From Campylobacteraceae bacterium (GTDB taxonomy: Bacteria; Campylobacterota; Campylobacteria; Campylobacterales; Sulfurovaceae): a stretch of DNA of 33,796 bases. Both the position numbers and the translations under genes were made by a program. Location: assembly GCA_027076905.1 (NCBI GenBank), contig JALTGP010000099.1, positions 1 to 33,796 on the forward strand, read 5' to 3'. Within the stretch, counting starts at the first letter, position 1; each line of letters opens with the position of its first letter. The notes under the pieces were generated by a model. It did no database searches, was not told the DNA's origin, and saw nothing but the letters and a program-made list of their open reading frames with translations. Positions 3,897 through 32,033 of this stretch are shown here, in pieces.

Positions 3897-5405
3897 ATGC
3901 AATCAAATTTTAGTACCTTGGATTGGGCTGTATTTTTCTCATATTTTTTAGTACTGATATTAACAACGGTAGTATTGAGTCAAAACAAAATTAAAACTTC
4001 ACGTGACTACTTCACAGGAGGCAATGCTATGCCTATGTTTGCTGTAGCCATTTCTGTTCTTGCCACGTCACAATCTGCTGCCACTTTTCTAGGAGGTCCA
4101 GAGTACTCTTTTGGCAAAGATTTAACCTTTTTAGGGTTTTATGCTTCTGCTTTTTTAGCTGTATTATTTGTGGCAAAGGTACTGATTCCAAGGTTTTATG
4201 CCATTAATGCTATTACGGTATATGAGTACCTAGAACATCGCTATGGTGGAAACTCAAAACAGTATGCAGGAGTCATGTTTTTAGTGGGTCGTCTTTTTGC
4301 TAGTGGGGCAAGACTCTATATTGGTGCATTGGCAATCTCTATGATACTCTTTTCAGATATATCTGCTTTACATATTGCTATCTCTATTATCATTTTGATG
4401 ATAGGGGCATTGGCCTATACCTATTTTGGTGGAGTGAAATCTGTAATATTTTCGGATATTATTCAAGCTGTTACCTATATAGGAGCAGGGTTGGCAGTGC
4501 TTATTTATCTTTATTATAGTATGCAGGTAGACTTCTCAACACTTATGGCAACACTTAATGAGAATGATAAGCTCAAAGTAGTAGATTTTTCATTTAGTGG
4601 AGGATTTACCATCTGGACACTCCTTACAGGTTGGTTTTTACTCAATATCGCAGCCTATGGGCTTGACCAAGATATGACCCAACGGGTACTGACTTGTAAG
4701 AATAAAGATGAGGGGTCAAAATCGCTTATCTATTCCATTATCTTCACCATACCTGTGGCACTGCTCTTTATGTTGATAGGTCTTCTACTATATATTTTCT
4801 ATATGCACCCAGAGCTTTCAGGATTCAAAGCTGTTTGTGTTGACCAGCAGTTCAATGGTCAAAAGGTAACAATATTTATGCTCTATATCTTAAATGAGAT
4901 GCCAGAGGGACTACGAGGATTGGTAACTGTTGGAGCAATTGCTGCTGCTCTCTCCTCAACTAACTCAGTACTCTCAGCCATGGCTTCTGTAGCTGTAGAG
5001 GATATCTACCGTCCGTGGTTGGCAAAAGAGGGAAGAGATGAGGTACATTTCTTAAAAGTTAGCCGTATCATGGTTATCACCTTTGCCATTTTACTCTGTG
5101 GAATGGCAATGATAAGCTTCTATTGGCAACAATTTACAGAGCTTCCACTTCTTAGCTTTGCTTTGGGTGTGATGGCATTTGCATATGCTTCACTTTTGGG
5201 GGTCTATGGTGCAGCTATCTTTACCAATAGAGGAACAGATAAGACCGTACTATGGGCATTAATAGGTGGTTTTCTGACTGTATTTATCTTACAACCCTAT
5301 GTGATAGGAAATATTTTTAATATCAAAGTAGATTTTGCTATTCAGATAGTGATAGGAACTTTAATTTCATTTGGAATTATGATGATTCAAAAAGTGGAAA
5401 GATAA
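3897..5405 (+). CDS. Sodium:solute symporter (SSS) family transporter; possible amino-sugar importer from context
   Basis: 502 aa polytopic; DYFTGGNAMP, ATSQSAATFLGGPEYSF, GGVKSVIFSDIIQ, AAALSSTNSVLSAMASVAVEDIYRPW typical of the SSS family. Stop overlaps the anmK ATG (TAATG). Confidence 0.88.
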   Translation: MQSNFSTLDWAVFFSYFLVLILTTVVLSQNKIKTSRDYFTGGNAMPMFAVAISVLATSQSAATFLGGPEYSFGKDLTFLGFYASAFLAVLFVAKVLIPRFYAINAITVYEYLEHRYGGNSKQYAGVMFLVGRLFASGARLYIGALAISMILFSDISALHIAISIIILMIGALAYTYFGGVKSVIFSDIIQAVTYIGAGLAVLIYLYYSMQVDFSTLMATLNENDKLKVVDFSFSGGFTIWTLLTGWFLLNIAAYGLDQDMTQRVLTCKNKDEGSKSLIYSIIFTIPVALLFMLIGLLLYIFYMHPELSGFKAVCVDQQFNGQKVTIFMLYILNEMPEGLRGLVTVGAIAAALSSTNSVLSAMASVAVEDIYRPWLAKEGRDEVHFLKVSRIMVITFAILLCGMAMISFYWQQFTELPLLSFALGVMAFAYASLLGVYGAAIFTNRGTDKTVLWALIGGFLTVFILQPYVIGNIFNIKVDFAIQIVIGTLISFGIMMIQKVER

Positions 5406-6484
5406 TGTATTTAGGTCTAATGTCAGGTACCTCACTTGATGGGATAGATATCGCTTTATGTCAGATAGATGAGGGTGGGTGTAAATCTCTTATTTATGAG
5501 GAGTATCCTCTGCCTGATGGTATCAAAGAGAAGACGTTAGAGATGATAAATGGTGCGACGACCATTGCCAAAGTTGGAGAGTTAGATTGTCTGATTGCAG
5601 AGGGGTATGCCACGGCTGTTAATTTTTTTTTAGAGAAGCATGATATAGATAAAAATGAGATAATTGCCATTGGTTCTCATGGTCAGACGCTTTGGCATCA
5701 GCCAAATGCAGAAATTCCTTTTTCGATGCAGTTGGGAAATCCTAGTCTGTTAGCTGTACGCACAGGGATAGATGTGGTGGCAGATTTTAGGTCAAAAGAT
5801 GTGGCTCTAGGAGGGCAGGGTGCTCCCTTTGCACCTGTATTTCATAAAGAGATATTTTCTCATATTAGTAGGTGTGCGGTAGTCAATATAGGGGGGATGG
5901 CAAATATTAGTGTTTTTTCTCCGACAACTATTGGATATGATAGTGGTTGTGGTAATGTTCTGATGGATATGTGGATATCTGAGTGTAAAAATATCGGCTA
6001 TGACAAAGATGGAGCGTGGGCATCTGGTGGTAATGTTAATCATGTTTTATTAAATAATATGTTAGAAGATAAGTACTTTAGATTAAATTATCCTAAAAGT
6101 ACTGGTAGAGAGTATTTTAATAAGAGTTTTTTAAGAAAATATTTAGCACCATGTGATAAAATATCAAATATAGATATACAAGCAACACTTTTAGCCTTGA
6201 CAGTAGTCTCTATTGCCAATGAGATAGAACGATTTGATATAGGAACAGTACTTGTATGTGGTGGTGGTGCTAAAAACTCATATTTGATGCAACAGCTTAA
6301 AGAGGCATTGCCTTTGGTAGAGGTTGCTGTAACAGATGACTATGGCGTAAGAGTAGATGAGATGGAAGCAATGATATTCGCATGGTTTGCGTTCAAGCGA
6401 TTGAGAAGTGAAAAAATAGAGTTGAAAACCGTAACGGGTGCAACTGATAATATGATTTTAGGTGGAATATATGCAAAAGATTGA
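5405..6484 (+). CDS. anmK: Anhydro-N-acetylmuramic acid kinase
   Basis: MYLGLMSGTSLDGIDIAL, IGSHGQTLWHQP, VADFRSKDVALGGQGAPFAPVFH, VVNIGGMANIS, GYDSGCGNVLMD, VCGGGAKNSYLM, DEMEAMIFAWFA: AnmK signatures. Confidence 0.97.
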   Translation: MYLGLMSGTSLDGIDIALCQIDEGGCKSLIYEEYPLPDGIKEKTLEMINGATTIAKVGELDCLIAEGYATAVNFFLEKHDIDKNEIIAIGSHGQTLWHQPNAEIPFSMQLGNPSLLAVRTGIDVVADFRSKDVALGGQGAPFAPVFHKEIFSHISRCAVVNIGGMANISVFSPTTIGYDSGCGNVLMDMWISECKNIGYDKDGAWASGGNVNHVLLNNMLEDKYFRLNYPKSTGREYFNKSFLRKYLAPCDKISNIDIQATLLALTVVSIANEIERFDIGTVLVCGGGAKNSYLMQQLKEALPLVEVAVTDDYGVRVDEMEAMIFAWFAFKRLRSEKIELKTVTGATDNMILGGIYAKD

Positions 6485-7433
6485 AGCGTGGGTAGAGAGT
6501 TTAGGTTATTCTAATTATAGATTGGAGGTGGTGAGTGCTGATGCGAGTTATCGTAAATATTATCGTCTGATTTTGGAGGATGAGAAGACGTTTATTGTTA
6601 TGGACTCCTCAATACAAGTGGAGAGTATTTATCCATTTATTGATGTGAGTGTGCGTCTTTTGAAATCAAATGTTCAAATCCCACGTGTTTACTCTCAAAA
6701 TCTACAAGATGGGTATCTTCTATTGGAAGATTTGGGAAATACACATCTCATAGATATATTAAATGAGATGAGTTATAAACTGGTTTATATGAAATCTATT
6801 TCAGAGATTCTAAAGATGCAAAAAACAGATACAACAGGATTAGAACTCTATGATGAAAAGTTTCTTAATTTTGAGATGGGTCTAATGGAGGATTGGTTTT
6901 TAGAAAAACATCATAATATATATTTGTCAAAAGAAGAGAAACAGAGTTTAAACGCTATTTTAGAACTGGTAAAAGATGAGGTACTCTCTCAACCTCAAGG
7001 TTACTTCGTTCATCGTGACTTCCATTCACGAAACATTATGTTTGCTGGTCGTGGTAAAATTTGGGTAATAGATTATCAAGATGCTAGAATTGGTGCTTTG
7101 ACATATGATTTGGTTTCACTTTTAAAAGATGTCTATATTAAATTTGATATTAAATTTAGTAGAGCAAAAATGCTGGAGCTTGTTTTGGAGTTTAAACTTT
7201 TAAAAGGTAAAGAGCTTACTCATATTAGTGATGAACAACTCATCCGATGGTTTGACTTTACAGGGCTTCAGCGTCATATTAAGATTTTGGGGATTTTTGC
7301 ACGATTAAAACTTAGAGATAATAAACCTGCCTATATAAAGGATATTCCCATGACGTTGATATATATTCATGAAATGATAGAACTTTATCCCGAACTTGAA
7401 CCTTTGAAGAGAATTTTAGATAAGATTAGTTAA
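6471..7433 (+). CDS. amgK: AmgK-like aminoglycoside-phosphotransferase-family kinase (putative anomeric MurNAc/GlcNAc kinase)
   Basis: SADASYRKYYRL, FVHRDFHSRNIMF, WVIDYQDARIGALTYDLVSLLKD; position between anmK and a murU-like gene. ATG at 6471 preferred over the upstream in-frame GTG at 6462. Confidence 0.82.
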   Translation: MQKIEAWVESLGYSNYRLEVVSADASYRKYYRLILEDEKTFIVMDSSIQVESIYPFIDVSVRLLKSNVQIPRVYSQNLQDGYLLLEDLGNTHLIDILNEMSYKLVYMKSISEILKMQKTDTTGLELYDEKFLNFEMGLMEDWFLEKHHNIYLSKEEKQSLNAILELVKDEVLSQPQGYFVHRDFHSRNIMFAGRGKIWVIDYQDARIGALTYDLVSLLKDVYIKFDIKFSRAKMLELVLEFKLLKGKELTHISDEQLIRWFDFTGLQRHIKILGIFARLKLRDNKPAYIKDIPMTLIYIHEMIELYPELEPLKRILDKIS

Positions 7434-7457
7434 AAATATAACATTTTAAGGGGAAAT

Positions 7458-8105
7458 ATGACGGCAATGATATTGGCTGCGGGTTTAGGAACCCGTATGC
7501 GACCACTAACAAATCATACACCAAAACCACTACTAGAGGTAGGAGGAAAGCCTCTTATTGTATGGCACATAGAACAGCTTAAATTTAATGGATTTTCTAC
7601 TATAATTATCAATGTTGCTTATTTGGGAGATAAGATTATACAGTATCTAGGAGATGGCTCTGATTATGGTGTAAAACTTATCTTTTCTGATGAACAAAAT
7701 GAGGGAGCATTGGAGACAGCAGGTGGAATTCTTAAAGCTTTAGGACATTTAAGCGAGACTTTTTTGGTGGTTAATGGTGATATATGGACAGACTTTAGTT
7801 ATAACTCAAATTTTAAATTAGAAAAAGAGGTATTGGCTCATCTAATTTTAATAGACAACCCTACCCATAATCCAAAAGGTGATTTTCTTTTAACAAATAG
7901 CCAAAAAAGATATACCTTTTCAGGGATTGGATACTACTCTAAAAAGATGTTTAAAAATTTGAACTATGGAAAACAACCATTGGCTCCATTGCTTTTTAAA
8001 GCAGTTGAGAATGAACAGCTGAGTACGGAGTATTATGCGGGAGAGTGGTATGATATTGGTACGCCACAAAGGTTAGAGTTTTTAAATAAAAAAATTATAA
8101 GCTGA
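7458..8105 (+). CDS. murU: MurU-like nucleotidyltransferase (putative N-acetylmuramate alpha-1-phosphate uridylyltransferase)
   Basis: MTAMILAAGLGTRMRPLTNHTPKPLLEVGGKPLI, DEQNEGALETAGGILKAL, VVNGDIWTDF, YDIGTPQRLEFLN; RBS aagggg upstream of the ATG. Confidence 0.82.
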   Translation: MTAMILAAGLGTRMRPLTNHTPKPLLEVGGKPLIVWHIEQLKFNGFSTIIINVAYLGDKIIQYLGDGSDYGVKLIFSDEQNEGALETAGGILKALGHLSETFLVVNGDIWTDFSYNSNFKLEKEVLAHLILIDNPTHNPKGDFLLTNSQKRYTFSGIGYYSKKMFKNLNYGKQPLAPLLFKAVENEQLSTEYYAGEWYDIGTPQRLEFLNKKIIS

Positions 8106-8111
8106 ATTTTG

Positions 8112-10031
8112 ATGCGTTATTTTTTTTTACCCTTGTTTTTTTTACACCTATTTTTTCCTTTTTCTCTATTTGGGGGTACTTTAGAGATAGGAGAGAGAGA
8201 CTCCTATTGGGTTCTTCCTTATTGTGAGTATGCTCCTATTGATAATATGAATGATACACCAAAGGAACTTTCTCATACTGTTTGGATAAGAGATAAGAAA
8301 GAGTTAGAACTTAACCCCAAAAATAGAGGATTTTGGATAAAAGTAAAAGTTACAAATCAAGATGAAATAGAAAAAAAGCTTTTTTTTATTTCAAAGAGAA
8401 ACTATGTTTACTTTATGGAGTATTATATTGTTAATAAAAATAAAATAATAGAGAATATTCAGTTTGAAAATGAATCAATAGATAAAGATAACGCTTATAA
8501 TGGGTTGCACCGAATTTTTCCTTTGATATTAAAAGAGAATGAAGAGGTAGAGATTTTTTTCAAAGTTCAAAGTTTTAATGTGGGATTGGTCTCTTTTAAT
8601 TTAGTGACACGAGACTATATGACCAAATTCTATCAAGATTATAGTTTTTTTAAGGGTTTATACTTTGGTATCATGATTGTAATGATGCTATATAATTTGG
8701 TTTTGTATCTATTTTTTAAATTCTTCTCTTATCTTTATTATGTGTTGTATGTCGCCTTCTTCTCTCTCTATTCACTTAGCTATTCAGGATACCTGCATCA
8801 TTATACAAATTTAAGTACCACCTCTATTGAGGTATTGTTCTCTGTAGGGTATGTAGGTTTTTTAATTTTTGTTGGTTCATTTGCAAAGGAGCTGTTTTTT
8901 TCAGGTAAAGGGAATGGTTTTATAACACGTTGGATAAAATATATTCAAATCTATCTTTTAGCAATGTTAATATTTAAAGTTATTTTTATATATCAAAATA
9001 GTTTTCTCTCTATAGAGTTTGTTATTATGCTTCAAAATATGATATTACCTCTTTATTATATATTAATTTTATATTTTTTATATGAAGTCTCACAAAAGAG
9101 TAATAATAATTTAGCATTGTGGTATTTGGTATCTTGGATTGTTATTGGGGTGATAGGGTTTTTACAGTTGGCTGCGTTTCATAACATTCTCTCTTTGGAG
9201 AATGGTTTTGACCATCTTTTTGAGGGAACTATGGCGTTTGAAACACTACTTTTCTCTGTTCTTTTATCTCTTAGAATTAAAGACATAAAAAGAGAGAAAG
9301 ATGAAAAAGAGAAGCTTTTAATTCAGCAAAATAAACTGGCATCTATGGGAGAGATGATTGTTAGTATTGCCCATCAATGGAGACAACCACTTGCTGAGAT
9401 AAATGGTGTTGTGATGAATTTAGATATAGATTATCAAAATAAAAAATTAGATAATGAGAGGTTACAATCACACCTATTGGATATAGAGAACACGACACAG
9501 CACCTCTCCTCTACCATGAATGATTTTATGGATTTCTTTAATCATAAAAAAGAGGTTAACCACTTCTCTATTTTTGAACTGTTTGAACATGCTATTAAAC
9601 TAGTACAGATGTCATCCAGAGAAAAAGTGGAAATAGTGTATAATATGCAGAGTGATATTAAGATGTTTGGTTATCGGTCTGAATTGATACAGGTATTGCT
9701 CATAAGTATTAATAACTCTATGGATGCATTTATAACCAGTAAAACTAAAAAACCAAAAATAGAGTTAAGTGCCATTAGAAAAGAGGATTATGTCTATTTT
9801 ACCATAGAGGATAATGGTGGAGGGATACCTGCTAATATTTTAGATAAAATATACGAGCCATACTTTACTTCAAAACCTAAAACCCAAGGGACAGGATTGG
9901 GACTTTATATTATGAAAATAATTATAGAAAAGAGTATGCTTGGAGAACTCTCGTTGAAAAATAGTGAAGAGGGAGTTGTTTGTTATTTTAAGATTGTAAA
10001 TCTTATTTCAAGTGAAAAAATATTGGTTTAA
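8112..10031 (+). CDS. Membrane sensor histidine kinase with 7TMR-DISM-type extracellular and 7TM region
   Basis: Signal peptide, extracellular segment with VWIRDKKELELNPKNRGFWIKVKVTNQ (7TMR-DISMED2-like), about 7 TM helices, H-box MGEMIVSIAHQWRQPLAEI, N-box ISINNSMDAF, G-boxes IEDNGGGIP and GTGLGLYI. Confidence 0.88.
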   Translation: MRYFFLPLFFLHLFFPFSLFGGTLEIGERDSYWVLPYCEYAPIDNMNDTPKELSHTVWIRDKKELELNPKNRGFWIKVKVTNQDEIEKKLFFISKRNYVYFMEYYIVNKNKIIENIQFENESIDKDNAYNGLHRIFPLILKENEEVEIFFKVQSFNVGLVSFNLVTRDYMTKFYQDYSFFKGLYFGIMIVMMLYNLVLYLFFKFFSYLYYVLYVAFFSLYSLSYSGYLHHYTNLSTTSIEVLFSVGYVGFLIFVGSFAKELFFSGKGNGFITRWIKYIQIYLLAMLIFKVIFIYQNSFLSIEFVIMLQNMILPLYYILILYFLYEVSQKSNNNLALWYLVSWIVIGVIGFLQLAAFHNILSLENGFDHLFEGTMAFETLLFSVLLSLRIKDIKREKDEKEKLLIQQNKLASMGEMIVSIAHQWRQPLAEINGVVMNLDIDYQNKKLDNERLQSHLLDIENTTQHLSSTMNDFMDFFNHKKEVNHFSIFELFEHAIKLVQMSSREKVEIVYNMQSDIKMFGYRSELIQVLLISINNSMDAFITSKTKKPKIELSAIRKEDYVYFTIEDNGGGIPANILDKIYEPYFTSKPKTQGTGLGLYIMKIIIEKSMLGELSLKNSEEGVVCYFKIVNLISSEKILV

Positions 10032-10116
10032 TATTTAAAACTAATGCTATTTGTACAAAAATATTATTTTATCACTCTTAAATCACAATGTTATGGCACA
10101 ATGTATCGAAATTACA

Positions 10117-10812
10117 ATGAACTTAGGGAAAAATTTGAATATATTAAAGAAAATTAACGTTTTATTTGTTGAGGACGAGCAGTCTATTTTGGAAAAATAT
10201 AGTCCATTTTTAGAAACTTATTGTAAAACACTTTATACAGCAAAAGATGGTGTAGAGGCGTATGAAATTTATAAAGAAAAAAATCCAAATGTTATCTTAA
10301 TGGATTTGTATATGCCTAGATGTACAGGTGTAGAGTTGGCACGAAAGATTCGAGAAGAGGATAGCAGTGTCGTCTTTATTGCCTTGAGTGCACACTCTGA
10401 TAGGGACACCTTGCTTGATATTGTTGATTTACATTTTTCGAGTTATTTAACCAAGCCTGTTAATCGAGTAGAGCTGTTGGGTGCTTTAACAAAATCAGCA
10501 GAGAGAATAAACTCACATATGATTGTGGTCTTACCTCTTAATTACTCTTGGGACACTAAAAGTCGAACACTTTTCAATGGAGATATCCAAATTCCACTTA
10601 CCAAAAGAGAGCAAAAACTTTTTGAACTTTTAGTGGAGAAAGAGGGTGCAGCTTGTGGTGATGCAGAGATTTTATATCATGTATGGGAGAATGAGTTTGA
10701 TAAACATGTTACCAATACTTCTATTAGAACATTAATTAAAAATCTACGAAAAAAGATTCCAAAAGAGTTAATTAAAAATCAGTATGGTGTTGGATATAAA
10801 ATAGACTGGTAA
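10117..10812 (+). CDS. OmpR-family response regulator (intact receiver plus winged helix)
   Basis: NVLFVEDEQS acidic pocket, NVILMDLYMPRCTG phospho-acceptor Asp, SSYLTKPVNR Lys; wHTH TKREQKLFELLVEK...SIRTLIKNLRKKIPKELIKNQYGVGYKI. The ORF track start at 10051 is a TTG; ATG at 10117 preferred. Confidence 0.88.
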   Translation: MNLGKNLNILKKINVLFVEDEQSILEKYSPFLETYCKTLYTAKDGVEAYEIYKEKNPNVILMDLYMPRCTGVELARKIREEDSSVVFIALSAHSDRDTLLDIVDLHFSSYLTKPVNRVELLGALTKSAERINSHMIVVLPLNYSWDTKSRTLFNGDIQIPLTKREQKLFELLVEKEGAACGDAEILYHVWENEFDKHVTNTSIRTLIKNLRKKIPKELIKNQYGVGYKIDW

Positions 10813-10925
10813 ATTTTATTATTTCACAATTATTGTACGTTTTTCACACATTTACCCTACTTTTTTTTGAGACTATCTATCTAAAATAAATAAATAATTA
10901 TAAACAATAAAAGGGAAAAAATATT

Positions 10926-10982
10926 ATGAAGATAGAAAATAGGGTTAAGCAATATTTTTGTACCAAAGTAATAGGAGCTTAA
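10926..10982 (+). CDS. Putative 18-aa leader ORF (MKIENRVKQYFCTKVIGA) upstream of the second response regulator
   Basis: ATG after an aaaaggg tract; TAA at 10980-10982 ends 1 nt before the ATG at 10984, and the downstream RBS (aggag) lies inside it. Confidence 0.3.
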   Translation: MKIENRVKQYFCTKVIGA

Positions 10983-10983
10983 G

Positions 10984-11646
10984 ATGAAACAGCTATCTAT
11001 ACTTTATGTTGATTTTGAAACTGAGGAGAGAGTATATTACTCCTCTCTTTTTAAGAGTTGTCTACAGGATGTAAGTGTTGTCAAAGATGGAGATGACGCG
11101 TATCAGTTTTATCTGGAGTTCAAACCTGATATTATCGTATTAGAACCATTGGTTCCAAATGGATTAGCCTTGGTAAAAAAAATTCGTCAAAATGATTATC
11201 AGACGATTTTATGTGCCATAACAAATGATACCAGTACTTCACTGCTTCAAGAGATTGTTGAACTCTTTTTTATTGCCTATCTCCATAAGCCTGTATCTAG
11301 TAAAGAGTTAATGGGTACAATGGTCAAGATAAAAAGAACATTAGAAAAAGAGGAGAAGGTTAAATTGTCCAAAGATGCCTATTGGGATAAAAAGGCAAAA
11401 ATGCTATATATTAACAATAGATATATTATTTTGACCAAAAGAGAGACAAAGCTTTTTGAGCTACTTGTTACGAATAGATGCCAGTTTTGTTCTGATGATG
11501 ATATATTTTTCTACGTTTGGGGGGATGAACTTGATAAGAGTGTTGGACTCTCCTCTATTCGTACTTTGATTAAAAACTTACGTAAAAAACTCCCCAATGG
11601 ATTTATCAAAAATAGGTATAGTTTGGGTTATAAAATTAATCCCTAA
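10984..11646 (+). CDS. OmpR-family response regulator paralog with divergent pseudo-receiver (Glu at phospho-acceptor position)
   Basis: ILYVDFETEE, DIIVLEPLVPNG (Glu54 in place of Asp), IAYLHKPVSS; wHTH TKRETKLFELLV...SSIRTLIKNLRKKLPNGFIKNRYSLGYKI very similar to the upstream regulator. Confidence 0.85.
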   Translation: MKQLSILYVDFETEERVYYSSLFKSCLQDVSVVKDGDDAYQFYLEFKPDIIVLEPLVPNGLALVKKIRQNDYQTILCAITNDTSTSLLQEIVELFFIAYLHKPVSSKELMGTMVKIKRTLEKEEKVKLSKDAYWDKKAKMLYINNRYIILTKRETKLFELLVTNRCQFCSDDDIFFYVWGDELDKSVGLSSIRTLIKNLRKKLPNGFIKNRYSLGYKINP

Positions 11647-12466
11647 TCTCTTCTAGATATTTGGCAACAGCATCTTCATTATTTGAAAAACTTGAAATAA
11701 TAGATGCTTGTTCTTTTACGCTATCCAAGGCATTGGATACTGCAACAGAAGTTCCTGCGAGTTTAAACATCTCTATATCATTTAATCCATCACCAAAAAC
11801 AGTGGTATTTTTAAATGAGACATCAAGGTAATCACAGATAATTTTTAGACCATTTGCTTTATCTCCTAAGGGATGAAGAATGGTCAAAAAATAGCAGTTC
11901 ATGTAGTTCTCGGGAGATAGTTTTATCTCTAAACTGTTTCCAAAAACTTTTTTTAACTGCTCACATAGTGGACGAAGTTTCTCCTCTTCATCCATATAAA
12001 CTATTTTTAGCGTCTCTTTTGCACCTTTAATTCTGTTCATATATTTTATTCTAGGGTCATGGCTATAGCTTTTGTCAATTAAGGAGGATTGGAAATGTCC
12101 CATAGAAGGGGGTAGGGCAAACGTCTCTGCTAGTGTTTTATGGTCATCTAAAGAGATAACAAATGGGAATAGGTTAAACTTCTCTCCTTCATTAATAATA
12201 GTATCACTTATCTCTTTTCCTAAAACTTTAACATCAATAAGCTTTTTATCTGAGTCCACAATCATTGCTCCATCTAGTAAAATTAGAGGTACATCTAGTC
12301 TAAGACCTTTTAGAAACTCTTGGCTTTTATTAAATCCTCTTGCTGTGGCAATAGTCAGAAGGCTATTTTGTGCTTTCTTATTCCAAATCTCTTTAGAAAA
12401 AGGGCTAATGGTTTGATTACTATGTAAAAAAGTATGGTCTAAATCGGTTACGTATAATTGTTTCAC
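11636..12466 (-). CDS. Cof-type HAD-IIB family hydrolase
   Basis: MKQLYVTDLDHTFLHSNQTIS (DxDxT), TIATARGF, K-containing PLGDKANGLKIICDYL, VFGDGLNDIEMFKLAGTSVAVSNA. Confidence 0.9.
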   Translation of the reverse strand: MKQLYVTDLDHTFLHSNQTISPFSKEIWNKKAQNSLLTIATARGFNKSQEFLKGLRLDVPLILLDGAMIVDSDKKLIDVKVLGKEISDTIINEGEKFNLFPFVISLDDHKTLAETFALPPSMGHFQSSLIDKSYSHDPRIKYMNRIKGAKETLKIVYMDEEEKLRPLCEQLKKVFGNSLEIKLSPENYMNCYFLTILHPLGDKANGLKIICDYLDVSFKNTTVFGDGLNDIEMFKLAGTSVAVSNALDSVKEQASIISSFSNNEDAVAKYLEEIRD

Positions 12467-12508
12467 TATTACTCTTCTTTTTTATGCAATTATAGTAGAA
12501 TTTATGTT

Positions 12509-22654: not shown

Positions 22655-24868
22655 GTGAAAATAATTTTAAAATATTTTAGATATATCATTATTATAAGTA
22701 GTATTATACTGTTACTATTTTTTCTGTTAAATTATCTCTATCCTCTAAATGTGGATAGATTAAATAAGCCCAAATCAACACTTATTTATGATAATGGAAA
22801 TCGTTTGGTCTCATTAAAGTTAAGCTCTGATGGCTTTTTGCGTATACCTATAAAGCCCAAAGAGTTAACTCCTCAGATAAAAGATACTGTTTTGGCATAT
22901 GAAGACCAATATTTTGAGCAACATTTTGGGATAAACCCCTTGGCAATTATTCGGGCTATGTGGTTTAATATTAGCAACCAAAGAACCATAGGGGCATCAA
23001 CCATTACCATGCAGGTGGCACGAATGATGCATCATCAACCCCGTACCTTAGGGCAAAAGCTTATTGAGATGTTTCAATCGCTTCAACTTGAACTTCACTA
23101 CTCTAAAGAGGAGATACTAACCTTTTATCTCAACAATGCACCATATGGAGGAAATATAGAGGGGTTTGCCTCTGCATCATTTCGATATTTTAACCTCTCT
23201 CCCTCTTCACTTTCACTCTCTCAAATCGCCTATTTGACAACTATTCCAAAAAATCCCAATGCTAACCGACCCAAAAAGAGTAGGGATATTTCCAAAATTA
23301 AAAATAGGCTTTTAAGACGAATTTATGGATTAAATCTTTTAACAAAGAGAGATTATCTTCGTGCCAAAGAGGAGAATATTTTTGTCAATATAAAAAAATT
23401 ACCTCATCAAATTCCTCATCTAACAGCCCAAATAAAACAGGAGGGCGAGGTGCATACCACCATTGATATGCATTTACAAAAAGCCACACAGAGACTCTTG
23501 ACAATAGGGGTTGATGAGGTTAAAACGTTTGGTATCCATAACTCTTCGGCTCTGATTATTGACAATCGTACCATGAGAATTGTGGCATATGTAGGTTCAA
23601 ATGATTTTTATGATAGCAAATATGGAGGACAAAATGATGGGGTACGTGCCTTGGTCTCCCCTGGTTCTACGCTGAAACCTTTGGTCTATGCACGAGCATT
23701 AGAAGAGGGTTTAATCACCCCTTTGAAAAAGGTTTATGATGTGCCACTCTTTATAGATGGTTACAAACCCACCAACTATTCCAAAGAGTATCTTGGAGAG
23801 GTGACCGCGAGTGAAGCGTTACAGTTTTCGTTAAACATCCCTGCTGTAGAGCTTGATAGGCTTCTAGGAGATAGAGGACTCTATGCCTTACTAAAAAAGG
23901 CAGATATCTCTTCATTAAAGTACAAAAAAAGTCACTATGGTTCATCCTTGGTCTTGGGAGGATGGGGCATTTCACTCCAAAATAATGCAGAACTCTTTGC
24001 GATGTTGGCAAATGGTGGTGTATACAAAAGAGCAACATATATACAAAAACCTTTGCCTTCTAATATCAGAAAAAATCTCCTAAAACCCACCTCCAGCTAT
24101 CTTATCTCCACTATCCTATCCGATGCCCCACGTCTTCACTTCTCCTCCTCATGGGAGTATATTCAAGATATGTCACGCATTGCATTTAAAACAGGAACAT
24201 CTGCCCGTGCCAAAGATATGCTTACTATCGGTTATACTCCTGACTATACCGTGGCGGTTTGGTATGGAAATTTTTCAGGAAAAGCGAGTAAATATCATGA
24301 TGGTTTCTATGCTACAGGATTGAAAATAGCTTCACCCACCATGTTCAAAATTTTTAAACTCCTAGGTAAGCAGAGTTGGTTCAGGCAACCAAAAAGTATA
24401 AAAAAAGAGCCTATCTGTCAAGATAGTATACAGATAGGCAAGTGCCAAGAGTCCATAGAGGATTATATAATAGAGGGGATAAAACCCAAATCACTCTGCC
24501 AAGCGATGAGAGCAGAAGTCCTCTCCTATCTGTTAGAAAATCAAAAGATAGAGAGTTTCTCTACCTTAGCCAAACATCAATGCTATGGTGAATGGAAAAG
24601 CTACAAACCCCTCATAACCAATCCCATACATGATAAACACTACGCACATAATCAAATGCTACCAAATGAGTTCAAAAAAACCATGATGCAGTGCTACTCT
24701 TTCGAAGAGAACAGCACTATCTATTGGCTCATAGACCATAATGAACCTGTGGTAGGTAAGTCCTCTGTTCCATTTTATAAATATCTAACTCCAAAAAATC
24801 ATACTATCTCTTGTTTAGATGAGGGGGCAAAAATACAGAGTGTGGAGGTCTATTTGGAGGAGATTTGA
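22655..24868 (+). CDS. pbpC: Penicillin-binding protein 1C (bifunctional GT51 transglycosylase/transpeptidase)
   Basis: AYEDQYFEQHFGINPLAIIRAM, GASTITMQVARM, LNNAPYGGNIEGFASASFRYF; transpeptidase motifs SPGSTLKPL, SLN, FKTGTSA. Confidence 0.92.
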   Translation: MKIILKYFRYIIIISSIILLLFFLLNYLYPLNVDRLNKPKSTLIYDNGNRLVSLKLSSDGFLRIPIKPKELTPQIKDTVLAYEDQYFEQHFGINPLAIIRAMWFNISNQRTIGASTITMQVARMMHHQPRTLGQKLIEMFQSLQLELHYSKEEILTFYLNNAPYGGNIEGFASASFRYFNLSPSSLSLSQIAYLTTIPKNPNANRPKKSRDISKIKNRLLRRIYGLNLLTKRDYLRAKEENIFVNIKKLPHQIPHLTAQIKQEGEVHTTIDMHLQKATQRLLTIGVDEVKTFGIHNSSALIIDNRTMRIVAYVGSNDFYDSKYGGQNDGVRALVSPGSTLKPLVYARALEEGLITPLKKVYDVPLFIDGYKPTNYSKEYLGEVTASEALQFSLNIPAVELDRLLGDRGLYALLKKADISSLKYKKSHYGSSLVLGGWGISLQNNAELFAMLANGGVYKRATYIQKPLPSNIRKNLLKPTSSYLISTILSDAPRLHFSSSWEYIQDMSRIAFKTGTSARAKDMLTIGYTPDYTVAVWYGNFSGKASKYHDGFYATGLKIASPTMFKIFKLLGKQSWFRQPKSIKKEPICQDSIQIGKCQESIEDYIIEGIKPKSLCQAMRAEVLSYLLENQKIESFSTLAKHQCYGEWKSYKPLITNPIHDKHYAHNQMLPNEFKKTMMQCYSFEENSTIYWLIDHNEPVVGKSSVPFYKYLTPKNHTISCLDEGAKIQSVEVYLEEI

Positions 24869-26183: not shown

Positions 26184-26324
26184 TTTAGCTTTCCTTATGA
26201 TTTTTTATCTGAATTGTACTTTATTTAAGTTGTTATTATCCTATAACCCTCAAGTTTCAAAAATATCACAAAAAGACACATTTTTATGATACTTTTATGG
26301 TAAAATAAATAAAAAGTGATTATC

Positions 26325-29300
26325 ATGAAAAAATATCTCCTTCCTTTTGTTTTCACCTCGCTCCTTTTGGCTAATCCTACTGATAAACCTACTACACCTA
26401 AACCTATCCCAATAAATGATACTTTTTTATTGAAGAGTAAAACGGCTGTTTTTGATAACTCTATCTCCTATACGCATCAACCACTTCTTGATTGTGTACC
26501 ACAGATTTCGGCTGTTTATCGGGTGGAATCGGAAAAAGAGATTAAGGTGATTCCAAAAGAGGCTCTGCGTAGTGGTACGACGTATAGTTGTAAACATAAA
26601 GAGGTTCGTTTAAGTTTTACCACGGAGGCTTTGAGGGTAGAGGATGCTCGTTATCTTGCATCTGAAAAGCTTTTGAGGTTGAGCTTTTCTAATACCATTG
26701 ATAAGAAAAATTTGAAAAATGCTCTGGTGTTGCAAAAAATTGATAAACTCTCTACCACAAATTTGAAATACTCTATGCTTCAAAGTGATGGTAAAGATAT
26801 GATTTTAAAGATTAATGAACCTGTGAAAAACAGTACGATTGTTTTAAAGATTGGTAAAAAAGTACTTACTACTTATGGTAAGAGTATTGAGAACGTTTTT
26901 GAGAAGAGATTTAACCAACAACATAGAGATGAGGTGGTGTTAGATAATGAGAAAAAAGCAATGCTACTTACTGATGCTCCTCAGATGATTCCTCTCTCCA
27001 CGGGTGGGTTTGCACTTCGACTCTTTTTTGAGGATAGTTTTGTGCGTAAAACTGATAAGTATATCGAAATTGAGGGGATTGATAACTTTAGTGTAAATGC
27101 TGATAACTATATCTATCGCTCTTCTCGTAAAAAATATGGTCTATCGGATAAGCCCTACTACTACACAGATATCATCTCTTCGGAGTTCAAACCAAATACT
27201 AGCTACACCGTGACGCTTAAAAAGGGGTTGAGTACCTATAGGGAGCTAAAAGAGGATAAACACTATACCCTAAAGACAGGAGATAGAGCCAAAGGAGTTA
27301 TATTTCAAGGAGATAAACTCTATGTCTCCAATGTAGGTGATTTTGGATTCTCTTCGGTTAATATTGACAATGCCACGATTATTGTAGAGCGTCTTTTGGA
27401 TGATAACTTGCGTTATTTTCTAAATTTTGATGATGCTGATAAATCAAGTACAGAGCGTTATTCAAAAGAGGTTTTGAGTAAAAAAATCAGACTTAGTAAT
27501 CGAAAAAATGAGATTATTAAACAGAAGTTCTCTTTTAAATCTTTGGATAAAAAACTCCCTTTTGGGGTCTATAATATCACTTTACGCTATAGCGAGGTGG
27601 TGAACGAGAAGATAAAAGAACGCTCTGTCTCTAAAGTGATTTTTCTCTCAGACCTAGGAATCTCTGTGAGCCTTGCTAAAAAACAAGCGTTTATTACTGT
27701 GTTGTCTCTTAGTACAGTAAAGCCTGTAGCAGGAGCGACGGTGGAACTTTACTCCAATAATAACGATATATTAGGAACGGTGATGACCAATGATGATGGG
27801 GTTGCCGTTATAGAAAAAGAGAAGTTACTTACTAAAAATCTACTAGATGGTAGTGCTAAAGGGGTGGTGGTAAGAACAAAAGGGGATACCAACTTTTTAC
27901 CTCTAAATAGCCCAACAAATAACCTCTCTCCTTCGGATATTATGGAAAAGAGAGCACGTTTTAAAGCCCATCTCTATTTTCAATCTAAAATAGTACGACC
28001 AAAATCAAGAGTCAATGCCCTTGTTACCGTAAAAGATAGAAACTTTATCTCTGCAAATAAGTTGCCGATTAAATTGGTTTTATATAACCCAAATGGAGAT
28101 GAGGTTCATAATAAAGTATATCATACGGATAGTTATGGATTGATAGATTTTAACTATCAACTAGAGGATGCCGACCAAACAGGTCAATATAGGCTTAAAG
28201 CATGGATAGGAGATGAGTCTATAGGTGGAAAAAGATTTAAAGTCGAAGCGTTTATGCCACCAAAAATAGAAAATCATATCGCTACGAATAAAGATGTTTA
28301 TAGTAATTTAGAGCTTATTGAGTTAAATATTAGCTCGTCATATCTCTTTGGTTCACCTTCATCAGGGCTAGATGGTTCGGTTAAACTCAATGCACGAGCT
28401 GTGGAGTATTTTAATAAAGATTATAAAAACTATAGCTTCTCAAATGCTCAACTTAATAAAGATAACGTACAGTCCTATATTGATTTGGAGGAGGACTTTA
28501 CCCTTGATGAGAAGGGAAAAACCTCTCTGCTACTCTCCTCTAAAGTTACCCAAAAAGTACCCTCTGTGTTAGAGGCGATGATTGGGGTGACGGTGATGGA
28601 TGATTCTCAACCTGTCTCCAATTATAAAAAGATAAAAATCTACCCTTACAAGGCGATGGTAGGACTCTCTATTGATAAAAGTTCATTTGAAAAAGGGCAG
28701 AAACTTACTGGAAAAGCTCTCTTGATTGATCCTATAAGTGGAGAGTTGATTAATCGTAAACTCTATGCTGTTGTCAAAAAGATAAATTGGCAATATGCTT
28801 ATAGTGAGGGTAGATATCATTGGCAAAAAGAGATAAAAACGGTGGGAAGTTTTTCTCTAAACTCCAATGAAGCATTCTCTTATGCTCTTGGAGAGAATGG
28901 GGATTATGTTGTTGAAGTACATGACTATTTTGGTGGTCATTCTAGTTCGGCTACTTTTGATGTGTGGTGGTGGTCATACTCAAATATCTCTCCTAAAAAT
29001 GATTTAAAAACGATTGAGGTAAAGTTTGAAGACAGACTTTATAAAAAGGGAGATGCTATTGAGGTGAGTATCAAATCACCTATCCTAGAGGGTGAGGTCT
29101 TTTTGACACTCGAATCTGACAAAGTGGAACTCTATCGACGTATTAATCTTAAAAAAGGGGTTGCAAAAATTAGCATACCCATTGAGGTGGATATGAAGCG
29201 TGGGTTACACCTTCATGCCATTGCCATTCGTCCTTCGGATAGCCCCTCTAAGTTGATTCCTTTTAGGGCAACTGGCTATAAGTTTGTTAAACCAAATCGT

Positions 29301-32033
29301 GATGAGCATAAGATAAAAATCGAAATAGACGCACCCAAAATTACTAAATCTAAACGGGAATTGAGTCTAAATATCAAGACAGACAGAGCTTCTAAAATTG
29401 TGATAAGTGTGGTAGACAGAGGTATTTTACAGCTAGTAGGACAGAAAAAACCTGAACTGTTTGATTATTTTAATGAGAATGCAGAGAGCAGACTTAGCTA
29501 CTATGACCTCTATGATGAGCTGATGAGCTTTGTGGTAGAGGGAAACCTAATAGATTTTGGGGCAGGGGATATGATGTCTCAAAAGAAAAAACACCTCGCT
29601 CCTGATTTGGGAAAACGGATTAAGCCATTTATGATTTGGTCAGGAATTGTTGAGAGTGGTAATGGAGATAAAAATATCACCATAGATATCCCTGAGTTCA
29701 ATGGTAGAGCCTCTATTGTGGCTGTTGCCATCAATTCTGATGGTGTGGGTGTAGCCCAACAAGATATCACTGTGAGAGATGATGTGATGCTAAAGCCATC
29801 TTATCCAAAATATGCACTTGTAGGGGATAAAATAGATGTACCATTACGAATTTTTAATACCACCAAAGAGCCAAAAGTAGTGTTACTCTCCTCAACGCTC
29901 TCTGATAATCTATCTTTTGTTTTAAGCGAAAAAAATGTGACGATTGCCCCAAATAGCTCACAGCTTATCAAAGCTTTTTTGGAGGCTAAAAAGATAGGAA
30001 AGGGTGAGATTATTCTTGTTGCCAACTATGCAAATGAGACCATTACTAAAAGTGTAGAGTTGCCTATCTATTCACCTTACGCCCTATCTACACATACCTT
30101 TAAAGGGATTTCAAATCAGAGTAAAACCTTTGCCTCTCCAAAAGAGTATATTGATTCAAAAGTGATGATAACACTTTCTGATAATTTAATTGGAGCATTG
30201 CGTGATGACCTAAATTACTTGGTACAGTACCCATATGGGTGTGCCGAACAGACCAGTTCAAAACTCTCTGCGATGCACTATGCCAAACCGTTTTTACAAA
30301 AAGATGAGCTGTTGCTAGACAGTCAAAACTTTATCCGACAAGGGATAAAAAAACTCCAAAGTATGCAGAACTACTATGGAGAGTTTAACTACTGGAGAGG
30401 GGGAGATTATGTTCACCCTTATGCATCACTCTATGCATCGCAAACTCTGCTTGAACTAAAACGTGATGGGGTGGAGATTAAAAAGAGTTTTATTAAAAAT
30501 ATTATAAAAATGCTTGAATCTGTATCTAGTGCAAGTGGGAATTATGAGGCTAAATACACCAGTTCACAACGGGTCTATGCAGGTTTTATTCTATCCGAAC
30601 ATAAAAGTTTGAGCGATAGCACGGCAAATATGCTGTATGAAAAAGGGATGTACAAAGGGGATTTGGTTTCAAAGCTTTATATGTCAGCAATTTTAAAAAG
30701 AGAAGGAAAAACTGAAGATGCGACCAAACTCTATAAGAGCATAAATTACACATTAGGCGATTATGCGACAAAAAGTTATAAGAGTAGCAGAGGCAGTTTT
30801 GGTGCAACCAATCGGGATATGTTTATCCATTTTATGATTAAAACAGCATACTTTGGCAAAGATGTCAATGATTTGGTCCTCGTACAAAAAGAGTTCCCAA
30901 ATCTATACTCCACACAGACCAAAGCCGTGGCACTCAAAGCCATTAGCACTTATCTTGGTAAACCAAAAAGCTCAAAGCTAGATGTCAATATCAAAATAAA
31001 TAGTCAAAATGAGAACTATACTAAGTCCACTACCATTATGTTAGATAGATTGACAAGTGATACCATTACTCTGATTCCAAATAGCTCATCAATGAGTTAC
31101 TCTATTGAACTAATAAAACATCTGCCTAAAGTAATTAAGAATAAAATAGTATTGACCAAAGAGTTAAGTATTGCACGTCAGTTTATCAATGAAGATGGTA
31201 AAAATATTGATATCCAAAACTTGATACAGGGTGAAAAAATATACTCAAAAGTAAAAATTGTCAACAACGGAGAGATAGACAATGTGGTGGTAAGCCAACG
31301 TGTCCCTGCATGTCTTTCTATTGTCAATAATCGTATCAAAAATCAAAAAGCAAAATACAGAGATGTTAATATTAACCAAGAGAACAAAGAGATTCGAGAT
31401 GATAGGGTACTGAACTTCATCAATCTATCTAAAAAAACTATCTTTAGCAAAGAGGAGAATCGAACTATAACCATACCAAATACGGGCATTATCTACACTC
31501 CGTTTATGGTCACAAGCCAAGGAGAGTGCCAACTCCCTGCTGTTATCACTGAAGCTATGTATGACACACGAACCTATGACTACGCCAAAGAGGCAAATAA
31601 AATTATGGTCTATGAGGGAAATGCAACAACCCAAAAAGCCCCAACTATCAAAAAAAGTATAAGTTTTGAAGATGAGGCAAAAGCATTAGTAGACGCACTT
31701 TATAAAAAAGAGATGACATCAAACAATCCCAAGGATTTTATCTCTTTTTTCCACTATCCTATAAAGGTCTATTACCGAACTAAAAATGCTTCTAAAAAGA
31801 TGATTTTAAAAGACAAAAGAAACTATTTTAGAGATTGGAAAAAACGTGACTACTCAAATATAAAATTGGAAATAATTAGCAGTAAAGATGATGAGGTAGC
31901 CAAAGTCAAAATAGTATTTAACTATCTGCTAGACAATGGTAAAAAAGAGTTAAAAGGGGTGAGCAGACACCTTCTAACAGTTAAAAAGATTGATGGGGAG
32001 GTTTTGATTAGTGCTATTGAATTGGTTAAGTGA
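26325..32033 (+). CDS. Alpha-2-macroglobulin family protein (YfhM-like) with thioester motif and C-terminal extension
   Basis: About 1900 aa; signal peptide MKKYLLPFVFTSLLLA; MG-domain-like motifs; QYPYGCAEQTSSKLSAM thioester (CAEQ at 30240-30251). ATG 26325 preferred over GTG 26316. Confidence 0.93.
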   Translation: MKKYLLPFVFTSLLLANPTDKPTTPKPIPINDTFLLKSKTAVFDNSISYTHQPLLDCVPQISAVYRVESEKEIKVIPKEALRSGTTYSCKHKEVRLSFTTEALRVEDARYLASEKLLRLSFSNTIDKKNLKNALVLQKIDKLSTTNLKYSMLQSDGKDMILKINEPVKNSTIVLKIGKKVLTTYGKSIENVFEKRFNQQHRDEVVLDNEKKAMLLTDAPQMIPLSTGGFALRLFFEDSFVRKTDKYIEIEGIDNFSVNADNYIYRSSRKKYGLSDKPYYYTDIISSEFKPNTSYTVTLKKGLSTYRELKEDKHYTLKTGDRAKGVIFQGDKLYVSNVGDFGFSSVNIDNATIIVERLLDDNLRYFLNFDDADKSSTERYSKEVLSKKIRLSNRKNEIIKQKFSFKSLDKKLPFGVYNITLRYSEVVNEKIKERSVSKVIFLSDLGISVSLAKKQAFITVLSLSTVKPVAGATVELYSNNNDILGTVMTNDDGVAVIEKEKLLTKNLLDGSAKGVVVRTKGDTNFLPLNSPTNNLSPSDIMEKRARFKAHLYFQSKIVRPKSRVNALVTVKDRNFISANKLPIKLVLYNPNGDEVHNKVYHTDSYGLIDFNYQLEDADQTGQYRLKAWIGDESIGGKRFKVEAFMPPKIENHIATNKDVYSNLELIELNISSSYLFGSPSSGLDGSVKLNARAVEYFNKDYKNYSFSNAQLNKDNVQSYIDLEEDFTLDEKGKTSLLLSSKVTQKVPSVLEAMIGVTVMDDSQPVSNYKKIKIYPYKAMVGLSIDKSSFEKGQKLTGKALLIDPISGELINRKLYAVVKKINWQYAYSEGRYHWQKEIKTVGSFSLNSNEAFSYALGENGDYVVEVHDYFGGHSSSATFDVWWWSYSNISPKNDLKTIEVKFEDRLYKKGDAIEVSIKSPILEGEVFLTLESDKVELYRRINLKKGVAKISIPIEVDMKRGLHLHAIAIRPSDSPSKLIPFRATGYKFVKPNRDEHKIKIEIDAPKITKSKRELSLNIKTDRASKIVISVVDRGILQLVGQKKPELFDYFNENAESRLSYYDLYDELMSFVVEGNLIDFGAGDMMSQKKKHLAPDLGKRIKPFMIWSGIVESGNGDKNITIDIPEFNGRASIVAVAINSDGVGVAQQDITVRDDVMLKPSYPKYALVGDKIDVPLRIFNTTKEPKVVLLSSTLSDNLSFVLSEKNVTIAPNSSQLIKAFLEAKKIGKGEIILVANYANETITKSVELPIYSPYALSTHTFKGISNQSKTFASPKEYIDSKVMITLSDNLIGALRDDLNYLVQYPYGCAEQTSSKLSAMHYAKPFLQKDELLLDSQNFIRQGIKKLQSMQNYYGEFNYWRGGDYVHPYASLYASQTLLELKRDGVEIKKSFIKNIIKMLESVSSASGNYEAKYTSSQRVYAGFILSEHKSLSDSTANMLYEKGMYKGDLVSKLYMSAILKREGKTEDATKLYKSINYTLGDYATKSYKSSRGSFGATNRDMFIHFMIKTAYFGKDVNDLVLVQKEFPNLYSTQTKAVALKAISTYLGKPKSSKLDVNIKINSQNENYTKSTTIMLDRLTSDTITLIPNSSSMSYSIELIKHLPKVIKNKIVLTKELSIARQFINEDGKNIDIQNLIQGEKIYSKVKIVNNGEIDNVVVSQRVPACLSIVNNRIKNQKAKYRDVNINQENKEIRDDRVLNFINLSKKTIFSKEENRTITIPNTGIIYTPFMVTSQGECQLPAVITEAMYDTRTYDYAKEANKIMVYEGNATTQKAPTIKKSISFEDEAKALVDALYKKEMTSNNPKDFISFFHYPIKVYYRTKNASKKMILKDKRNYFRDWKKRDYSNIKLEIISSKDDEVAKVKIVFNYLLDNGKKELKGVSRHLLTVKKIDGEVLISAIELVK

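Follow-up and report, generated by a model that had tools for sequence, protein, structure and literature searches.

The window analysed here is a stretch of 33,796 nucleotides (nt), contig C99 (JALTGP010000099.1) of a 2.37-Mb, 318-contig, 85%-complete assembly of a Campylobacteraceae bacterium (GCA_027076905.1). It carries genes for the salvage of peptidoglycan sugars, a 7TMR-DISM sensor histidine kinase gene (HK) and two response regulator genes (RR1 and RR2). Gene calls and profile searches confirmed the order SSS-anmK-amgK-murU-HK-RR1-RR2, all on the plus strand, which an earlier note had read from the sequence, and the HK ATG was found where that note had placed it, 6 nt past the murU stop. 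The main features are as follows (MurNAc, N-acetylmuramic acid; GlcNAc, N-acetylglucosamine).

3897..5405, plus strand: sodium:solute symporter of the SSS family, at the head of the salvage operon (PF00474, E = 7e-32)
5405..6484, plus strand: anmK, anhydro-MurNAc kinase (PF03702, 423 bits; NF007139, 441.7 bits, NCBIfam equivalog cut-off 367)
6462..7433, plus strand: amgK, MurNAc/GlcNAc kinase (best model NF045759, 208.7 bits, below the cut-off of 550)
7458..8105, plus strand: murU, MurNAc-1-phosphate uridylyltransferase (NF045761, 268.6 bits, equivalog cut-off 250)
8112..10031, plus strand: HK, 7TMR-DISM sensor histidine kinase of 639 amino acids (Pfam, AlphaFold2 model, alignment)
8175..8633, plus strand: periplasmic ectodomain of HK, modelled alone (AlphaFold2; pLDDT, the per-residue confidence score, 84; pTM, predicted template modelling score, 0.83)
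10066..10107, plus strand: RR1 box and promoter (TCAC-N7-TCAC at 10072-10086, extended -10 to about 10102)
10135..10812, plus strand: RR1, OmpR/PhoB-type response regulator (PF00072/PF00486; phospho-Asp codon 10303-10305 intact)
10825..10876, plus strand: promoter array of RR2 with four half-sites (CAC/TAC/CAC/TAC) 11 bp apart and the -10-like TGAGACTAT
10927..10983, plus strand: 18-codon open reading frame (ORF) ending at the RR2 start (sequence)
10984..11646, plus strand: RR2, an RR1 paralogue with a pseudo-receiver (Glu54, codon 11143-11145, replaces the phospho-Asp; acid pair DF)

The first five genes, from SSS to HK, overlap (SSS/anmK by 1 nt, anmK/amgK by 23 nt) or lie 6-24 nt apart, and no terminator-like site was found in the murU-HK and HK-RR1 gaps. 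This makes a single transcription unit from SSS to HK plausible, in which the kinase would be cotranscribed with the salvage genes. The most likely start of RR1 is TTG 10135, since it has a ribosome-binding site (GGGAAA) and matches the 225-amino-acid relatives; it leaves a gap of about 100 nt after HK that holds a promoter of RR1's own.

The sensor kinase and the response regulators

The predicted HK protein has a signal peptide-like N-terminus, a DISMED2 ectodomain (residues about 22-166), seven transmembrane helices (about 167-356), a coiled coil with a dimerization and histidine phosphotransfer (DHp) region, and a HATPase domain. Pfam matches to 7TMR-DISMED2, 7TMR-DISM_7TM (PF07695, E 1e-19) and HATPase_c (PF02518, 65.7 bits) were above the cut-off and the HisKA match (20.4 bits) was under it. 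In the H-box, IAHQWRQP, residues H421 (codon 9372-9374), Q422, W423 and R424 are invariant among 23 aligned kinases. The Pfam scan of HK revealed no Response_reg domain, so the kinase does not have the hybrid architecture of RetS and LadS. In the full-length AlphaFold2 model (pLDDT 75.7), residues 24-166 form a beta ectodomain and residues 167-356 the membrane helices, and a long helix runs into the DHp region. Other kinases whose core is similar but whose sensor differs (CHASE2-like, as judged by eye) were set aside.

The earlier note had pointed to a DISMED2-type ectodomain, for which the family literature proposes a carbohydrate-binding fold, and had named the lack of such a fold as a refutation; the predictions do not refute it. 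The ectodomain scores 24-28 bits against PF07696 (cut-off 22), and 22 of 22 related ectodomains match this family. The domain was modelled alone because Foldseek with full-length HK gave kinase cores only among the matches listed. Its top matches were the RetS periplasmic domain structures 3jyb (E 1.9e-4) and 2xbz, and below them came further jelly-roll structures, among them CBM35 and the PA14 domain of a beta-glucosidase. TM-scores of about 0.3-0.55 limit this likeness to the level of the fold. The ectodomain is therefore predicted to be a jelly roll resembling a carbohydrate-binding module (CBM), a fold that does not by itself name the ligand.

The claim of two response regulators on the same strand was correct as to the genes, which are both of the OmpR/PhoB type, but only RR1 is canonical. 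RR1 has the key residues E19 D20, D63, S91 and K113 (numbered from ATG 10117) and a Trans_reg_C winged helix. RR2 is without the phospho-acceptor Asp, leaving RR1 as the sole canonical phosphorylatable regulator of the two. Among RR2 homologues of nine genomes, eight have Glu at the phospho-Asp position (Asp in G002), eight carry DF as an altered acid pair, and two residues are missing after the site. In pseudo-receivers Glu can serve as a phosphomimetic (PMC12632262), and RR2 probably acts independently of phosphorylation. Short ORFs of about 11-20 codons also stand directly before RR2 at loci L115, L117, L119, L101 and L118; they possibly encode a leader peptide or provide translational coupling.

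Regulatory DNA

The locus was compared across a set of 34 genomes of the genus, mostly fragmented assemblies, in any one of which the presence or absence of a single gene may be in error. The RR1 promoters of 24 aligned genomes share the consensus TCAC-N7-TCAC-A(A/T)T-N-TT-N-TG-NN-A-NN-AT, in which an extended -10 comes after an 11-bp direct repeat. In the window, the position weight matrix (PWM) of this box scored 36.7 bits at 10066-10107 and 11.6 bits at the next best site. A strict search (one mismatch) of the 34 genomes gave 29 matches, against 1 for a reversed control: 25 fall on RR1 promoters, those of G010 and G029 lie beside contig ends where RR1 is expected, and two are elsewhere. G005, G008, G028 and G031, in which RR1 was not clearly detected, had no strict match. 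None of 20 SSS/anmK promoters contained the box, their scores being far under the 33-48 bits of RR1 promoters. Since the strict box occurs almost only 5' of RR1 and is missing from the 20 salvage promoters, RR1 is most probably autoregulated from its own promoter. The suggestion that the system controls wall salvage finds no support here, the only recognisable box being that on the promoter of RR1 and, weakly, that of RR2.

The 171-nt gap between RR1 and RR2 contains the promoter-like array of RR2. As a comparison of upstream regions from eight genomes indicates, RR2 promoters have CAC/TAC half-sites spaced by 11 bp, with the -10 in the same position as at RR1. The RR1 pattern matches the RR2 promoter weakly in its own genome, and the RR1 PWM gives 12-17 bits in three relatives.

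A looser search of the genus (3 mismatches) was only a little above the reversed-pattern control and yielded no usable regulon. Two weak matches in the window were set aside: one at 12457-12498, in the gap between a HAD phosphatase gene and rho, was not conserved in relatives, and one at 26276, 5' of an alpha-2-macroglobulin gene, had no counterpart in the one relative checked. A different element, the palindrome CTAAATAacaaTATTTAG or a close variant, was present in five SSS promoters (L042:5171-5390 and the matching regions of L044, L045 and L083; variant in L039) and is a candidate operator of another salvage regulator. Most SSS loci have a divergent porin-like gene opposite, of the OprD family in L042.

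Conservation of the locus and history of the kinase

Synteny beyond this genome, which the earlier note had made a test of its proposal, was found. A kinase of the HK family occupies the salvage/regulator site in 9/34 genomes. The order murU-HK-RR1 is contiguous in G000, G012, G021, G022, G032 and G033, and extends to SSS-anmK-amgK-murU-HK-RR1 in all of these but G022; the site is split over contigs in G030, HK-RR1 lies at a contig edge in G007, and G025 has amgK-HK-HK-murU-RR1. Within this set the exact seven-gene order is unique to the window, where alone RR2 is added. The description of the kinase as dedicated is not supported, since most congeners either lack HK at the locus or have it at another place.

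RR1 is the constant element, present in 28 of the 34 genomes and usually directly 3' of murU with or without HK. It follows an intact murU, directly or across HK, in 19 genomes, a truncated murU in G019 and G026, and amgK in G002; at contig ends in G010 and G024, murU is followed by the RR1 box. RR1 is away from the salvage genes in G015, G017, G006 and G018, and in the first two it still lies beside HAD-rho-murI. Protein identity across the genus is 33-42% for HK and 51-61% for RR1. The gene order is not due to chance, as murU-HK-RR1 or anmK-amgK-murU-RR1 recurs across the genus. A scan of the contigs of named genomes with two peptide patterns, which distant relatives may escape, found RR1 relatives mostly in uncultured Sulfurovum sp. 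and in metagenome-assembled genomes of Campylobacteraceae/Campylobacterota.

Two variants of the regulator region were seen. In two genomes (L124:6804-7805 and L125:5574-6332) an N-terminal murU fragment of about 73-89 amino acids is in frame with the RR1 coding sequence; in G019 a run of N close to the junction points to a join made in assembly and not to fused genes. G029 probably has a tandem of three regulators, murU-RR1a-RR1b-RR2, that spans two contigs (L100 and L118), with an RR1 box before the second.

On trees the kinases of the site fall into two lineages, and a single clade of site kinases was rejected (approximately unbiased test, p-AU 1.7e-5); the second tree omitted the outgroup kinases, which belong to two other families. 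Group 2 site kinases are close to what we call type B kinases, whose genes diverge from a nucleosidase gene and have no regulator beside them; the genomes concerned have a kinase-less RR1 next to murU. Of the evidence for a partnership of HK and RR1, this coincidence of an orphan kinase with an orphan RR1 is the strongest. The RR1 acid pair points the same way: it is intact in 16/16 genomes with HK and degraded in 6/11 without it (Fisher p 0.0016), the six being RR2-bearing genomes in which the second acid is lost (EN or EK). That degraded pairs are confined to HK-less genomes favours an HK-RR1 pairing, which we consider probable from these sequence comparisons.

Several observations weigh against this interpretation. 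The loss of the acid pair is a single event on the tree, which makes the correlation weak, and a phylogenetically independent comparison was left with 3 pairs, too few to have any power. The acid pair is intact in five genomes that have RR1 but not this HK, so that RR1 can have another kinase, and the many histidine kinases of these genomes may allow cross-pairing. The fragmentation of the comparison assemblies is a further point on this side.

Salvage itself is core to the genus, as anmK was found in 31, amgK in 32, MurU above its cut-off in 29 and a Cof-type HAD in 31 of the 34 genomes. The window has the anabolic MurNAc recycling set anmK, amgK and murU, with AmgK under its equivalog cut-off. 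SSS adjoins anmK in G000, G001, G008, G012, G013, G021, G030, G032 and G033; in G020 (L101:5913-7178) an AAA/DUF4143 ATPase gene lies between the two. The conserved neighbour of the regulators is as follows.

11636..12466, minus strand: Cof-type HAD phosphatase (PF08282), in 31/34 genomes and beside RR1/rho in most congeners

This enzyme is a candidate non-orthologous MurNAc-6-phosphate phosphatase for the MupP step; it belongs to another Pfam family than MupP, for which no genome-wide search was made. After it, at higher coordinates, come w12458, rho and murI, all on the plus strand. Farther along the window, a PBP1C-type transglycosylase/transpeptidase gene (22655-24868) lies near the bacterial alpha-2-macroglobulin gene (26316-32033), a known wall-associated couple. 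In some genomes a FIST-domain protein, a hybrid kinase with Hpt and HD-GYP regulators adjoin anmK or murU (L034:1-5288, L085:14908-19000, L091:3787-9078, L093:3136-8408 and L104:1447-6752), and in G018 they separate amgK from murU. Since most of the genus has the FIST gene, this proximity may reflect gene-order inertia.

Proposed mechanism and known systems

The gene order and its recurrence, the domains, the conserved RR1 box and the pseudo-receiver of RR2 are read directly from the sequence. The explanation that we favour, with moderate confidence, is a two-component system of a 7TMR-DISM kinase and the PhoB-type RR1, in which the kinase gene has been appended to an anabolic salvage operon and RR1 is autoregulated from its own promoter. 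The kinase would be made together with the salvage enzymes, so that salvage transcription would set its dosage. Its RetS-like jelly-roll ectodomain would bind a periplasmic ligand, possibly a wall sugar, although we hold that identity to be rather doubtful. Phosphate would pass from H421 to Asp63 of RR1 (numbered from ATG 10117), and phosphorylated RR1 would bind TCAC-N7-TCAC at its own promoter and activate it. RR2 could act without phosphorylation on its related array as a feedback or constitutive branch.

The model of the earlier note, in which the system senses peptidoglycan sugars and directly controls SSS-anmK-amgK-murU transcription, could draw on the about 22 genomes in which RR1 is linked to murU/amgK, on the predicted CBM-like ectodomain and, by analogy, on GppX of Tannerella. 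On the other hand, the RR1 box was found in 0/20 salvage promoters, the SSS promoter has a different, palindromic element in five genomes, and RR1 is not beside the salvage genes in four. The promoter comparison argues against RR1 acting directly on the salvage promoter. It leaves room for sites that are weak or of another type, for indirect control and for targets of RR2; we consider both direct control and the model built on it improbable. Gene-order inertia, with RR1 a resident of the HAD-rho-murI neighbourhood beside which salvage genes and kinase insert without shared function, would explain why RR1 stays beside HAD/rho/murI where murU is elsewhere (G015 and G017) and why the FIST, hybrid kinase and HD-GYP set also adjoins salvage genes. 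It accounts poorly for the occurrence of HK-family kinases of two lineages exactly at the murU-RR1 site, for reading frames that overlap or nearly do so in some genomes, and for the position of RR1 after murU in most genomes, and seems unlikely.

The ectodomain might instead sense a ligand other than a wall sugar, with the operon position setting only the dosage of the kinase. The ligands of characterised DISMED2 domains differ, LadS binding Ca2+ and RetS mucin glycans (PMC7695008), and either Ca2+ or another glycan could be the signal here. Among full-length site and type B kinases the sensor part is also more divergent (26-37% identity) than the kinase core (43-50%). The repeated placement at a wall-sugar operon argues against this reading, to which we give serious weight, somewhat short of an even chance; it is compatible with the favoured two-component system and differs from it in the ligand only. 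The boldest reading is a signalling switch coupled to wall salvage: the salvage operon would determine how much of its own sugar-sensing 7TMR kinase is made, and the output would be the autoregulated RR1 together with a phosphomimetic paralogue reading a related DNA array. Such a switch, tied to the anabolic AmgK/MurU route, would be new to Campylobacterota; the combination is speculative and distinctly unlikely.

To our knowledge there are few known cases, AmpR, MurR and GppX, of bacteria sensing wall fragments that come from themselves or from neighbours. The locus offers a testable candidate in uncultured marine Sulfurovum-type bacteria, joining a kinase with a predicted carbohydrate-binding-type ectodomain in a salvage operon to the DNA box of its probable partner regulator. 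It also illustrates how a kinase may join or leave a resident regulator, and how receiver chemistry may decay where the kinase is missing. Literature searches on Sulfurovum with peptidoglycan recycling and on 7TMR-DISM with Sulfurimonas found no papers.

The RR1 box has the geometry of the E. coli Pho box, in which 11-bp direct repeats of TGTCA precede a -10 element at the same distance; it differs in reading TCAC and in occurring essentially only at the promoter of the regulator itself. The kinase resembles RetS and LadS of Pseudomonas in its DISMED2 ectodomain with a CBM-like jelly roll, its 7TM region and its HisKA/HATPase core. Those are hybrid kinases with no linked regulator that work through GacS, whereas HK is non-hybrid and adjoins an OmpR/PhoB-type regulator and a salvage operon. 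CosR/CosS of Campylobacter (PMC3938529) is likewise an OmpR-type regulator conserved in a Campylobacterota genus with a neighbouring kinase in some species only, and its phosphorylation residues are degraded where the kinase is missing, with experimental support. It differs in serving oxidative stress with no wall-salvage link, and CosR loses the phospho-Asp itself whereas RR1 loses the acid pair. The AnmK-MupP-AmgK-MurU recycling pathway of Pseudomonas shares the enzymes of anmK, amgK and murU; the consulted part of its description (PMC5371407) mentions no kinase/regulator pair, and in the window the phosphatase step would need another HAD enzyme.

The closest precedent is GppX of Tannerella forsythia, a two-component regulator linked to peptidoglycan salvage. 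It is a single-chain hybrid kinase with an AraC-type helix-turn-helix, and in a reporter assay it switched on the ampG operon, which adjoins murTKQ (PMC5388701). No hybrid kinase-receiver-AraC chain of this kind occurs at the window locus, which has a separate HK, PhoB-type regulators and the anabolic AmgK/MurU pathway, and where direct control of salvage is at most conjectural. Given GppX, the idea of a two-component system for wall salvage has been published before; what is new lies in the architecture, the anabolic pathway and the lineage.

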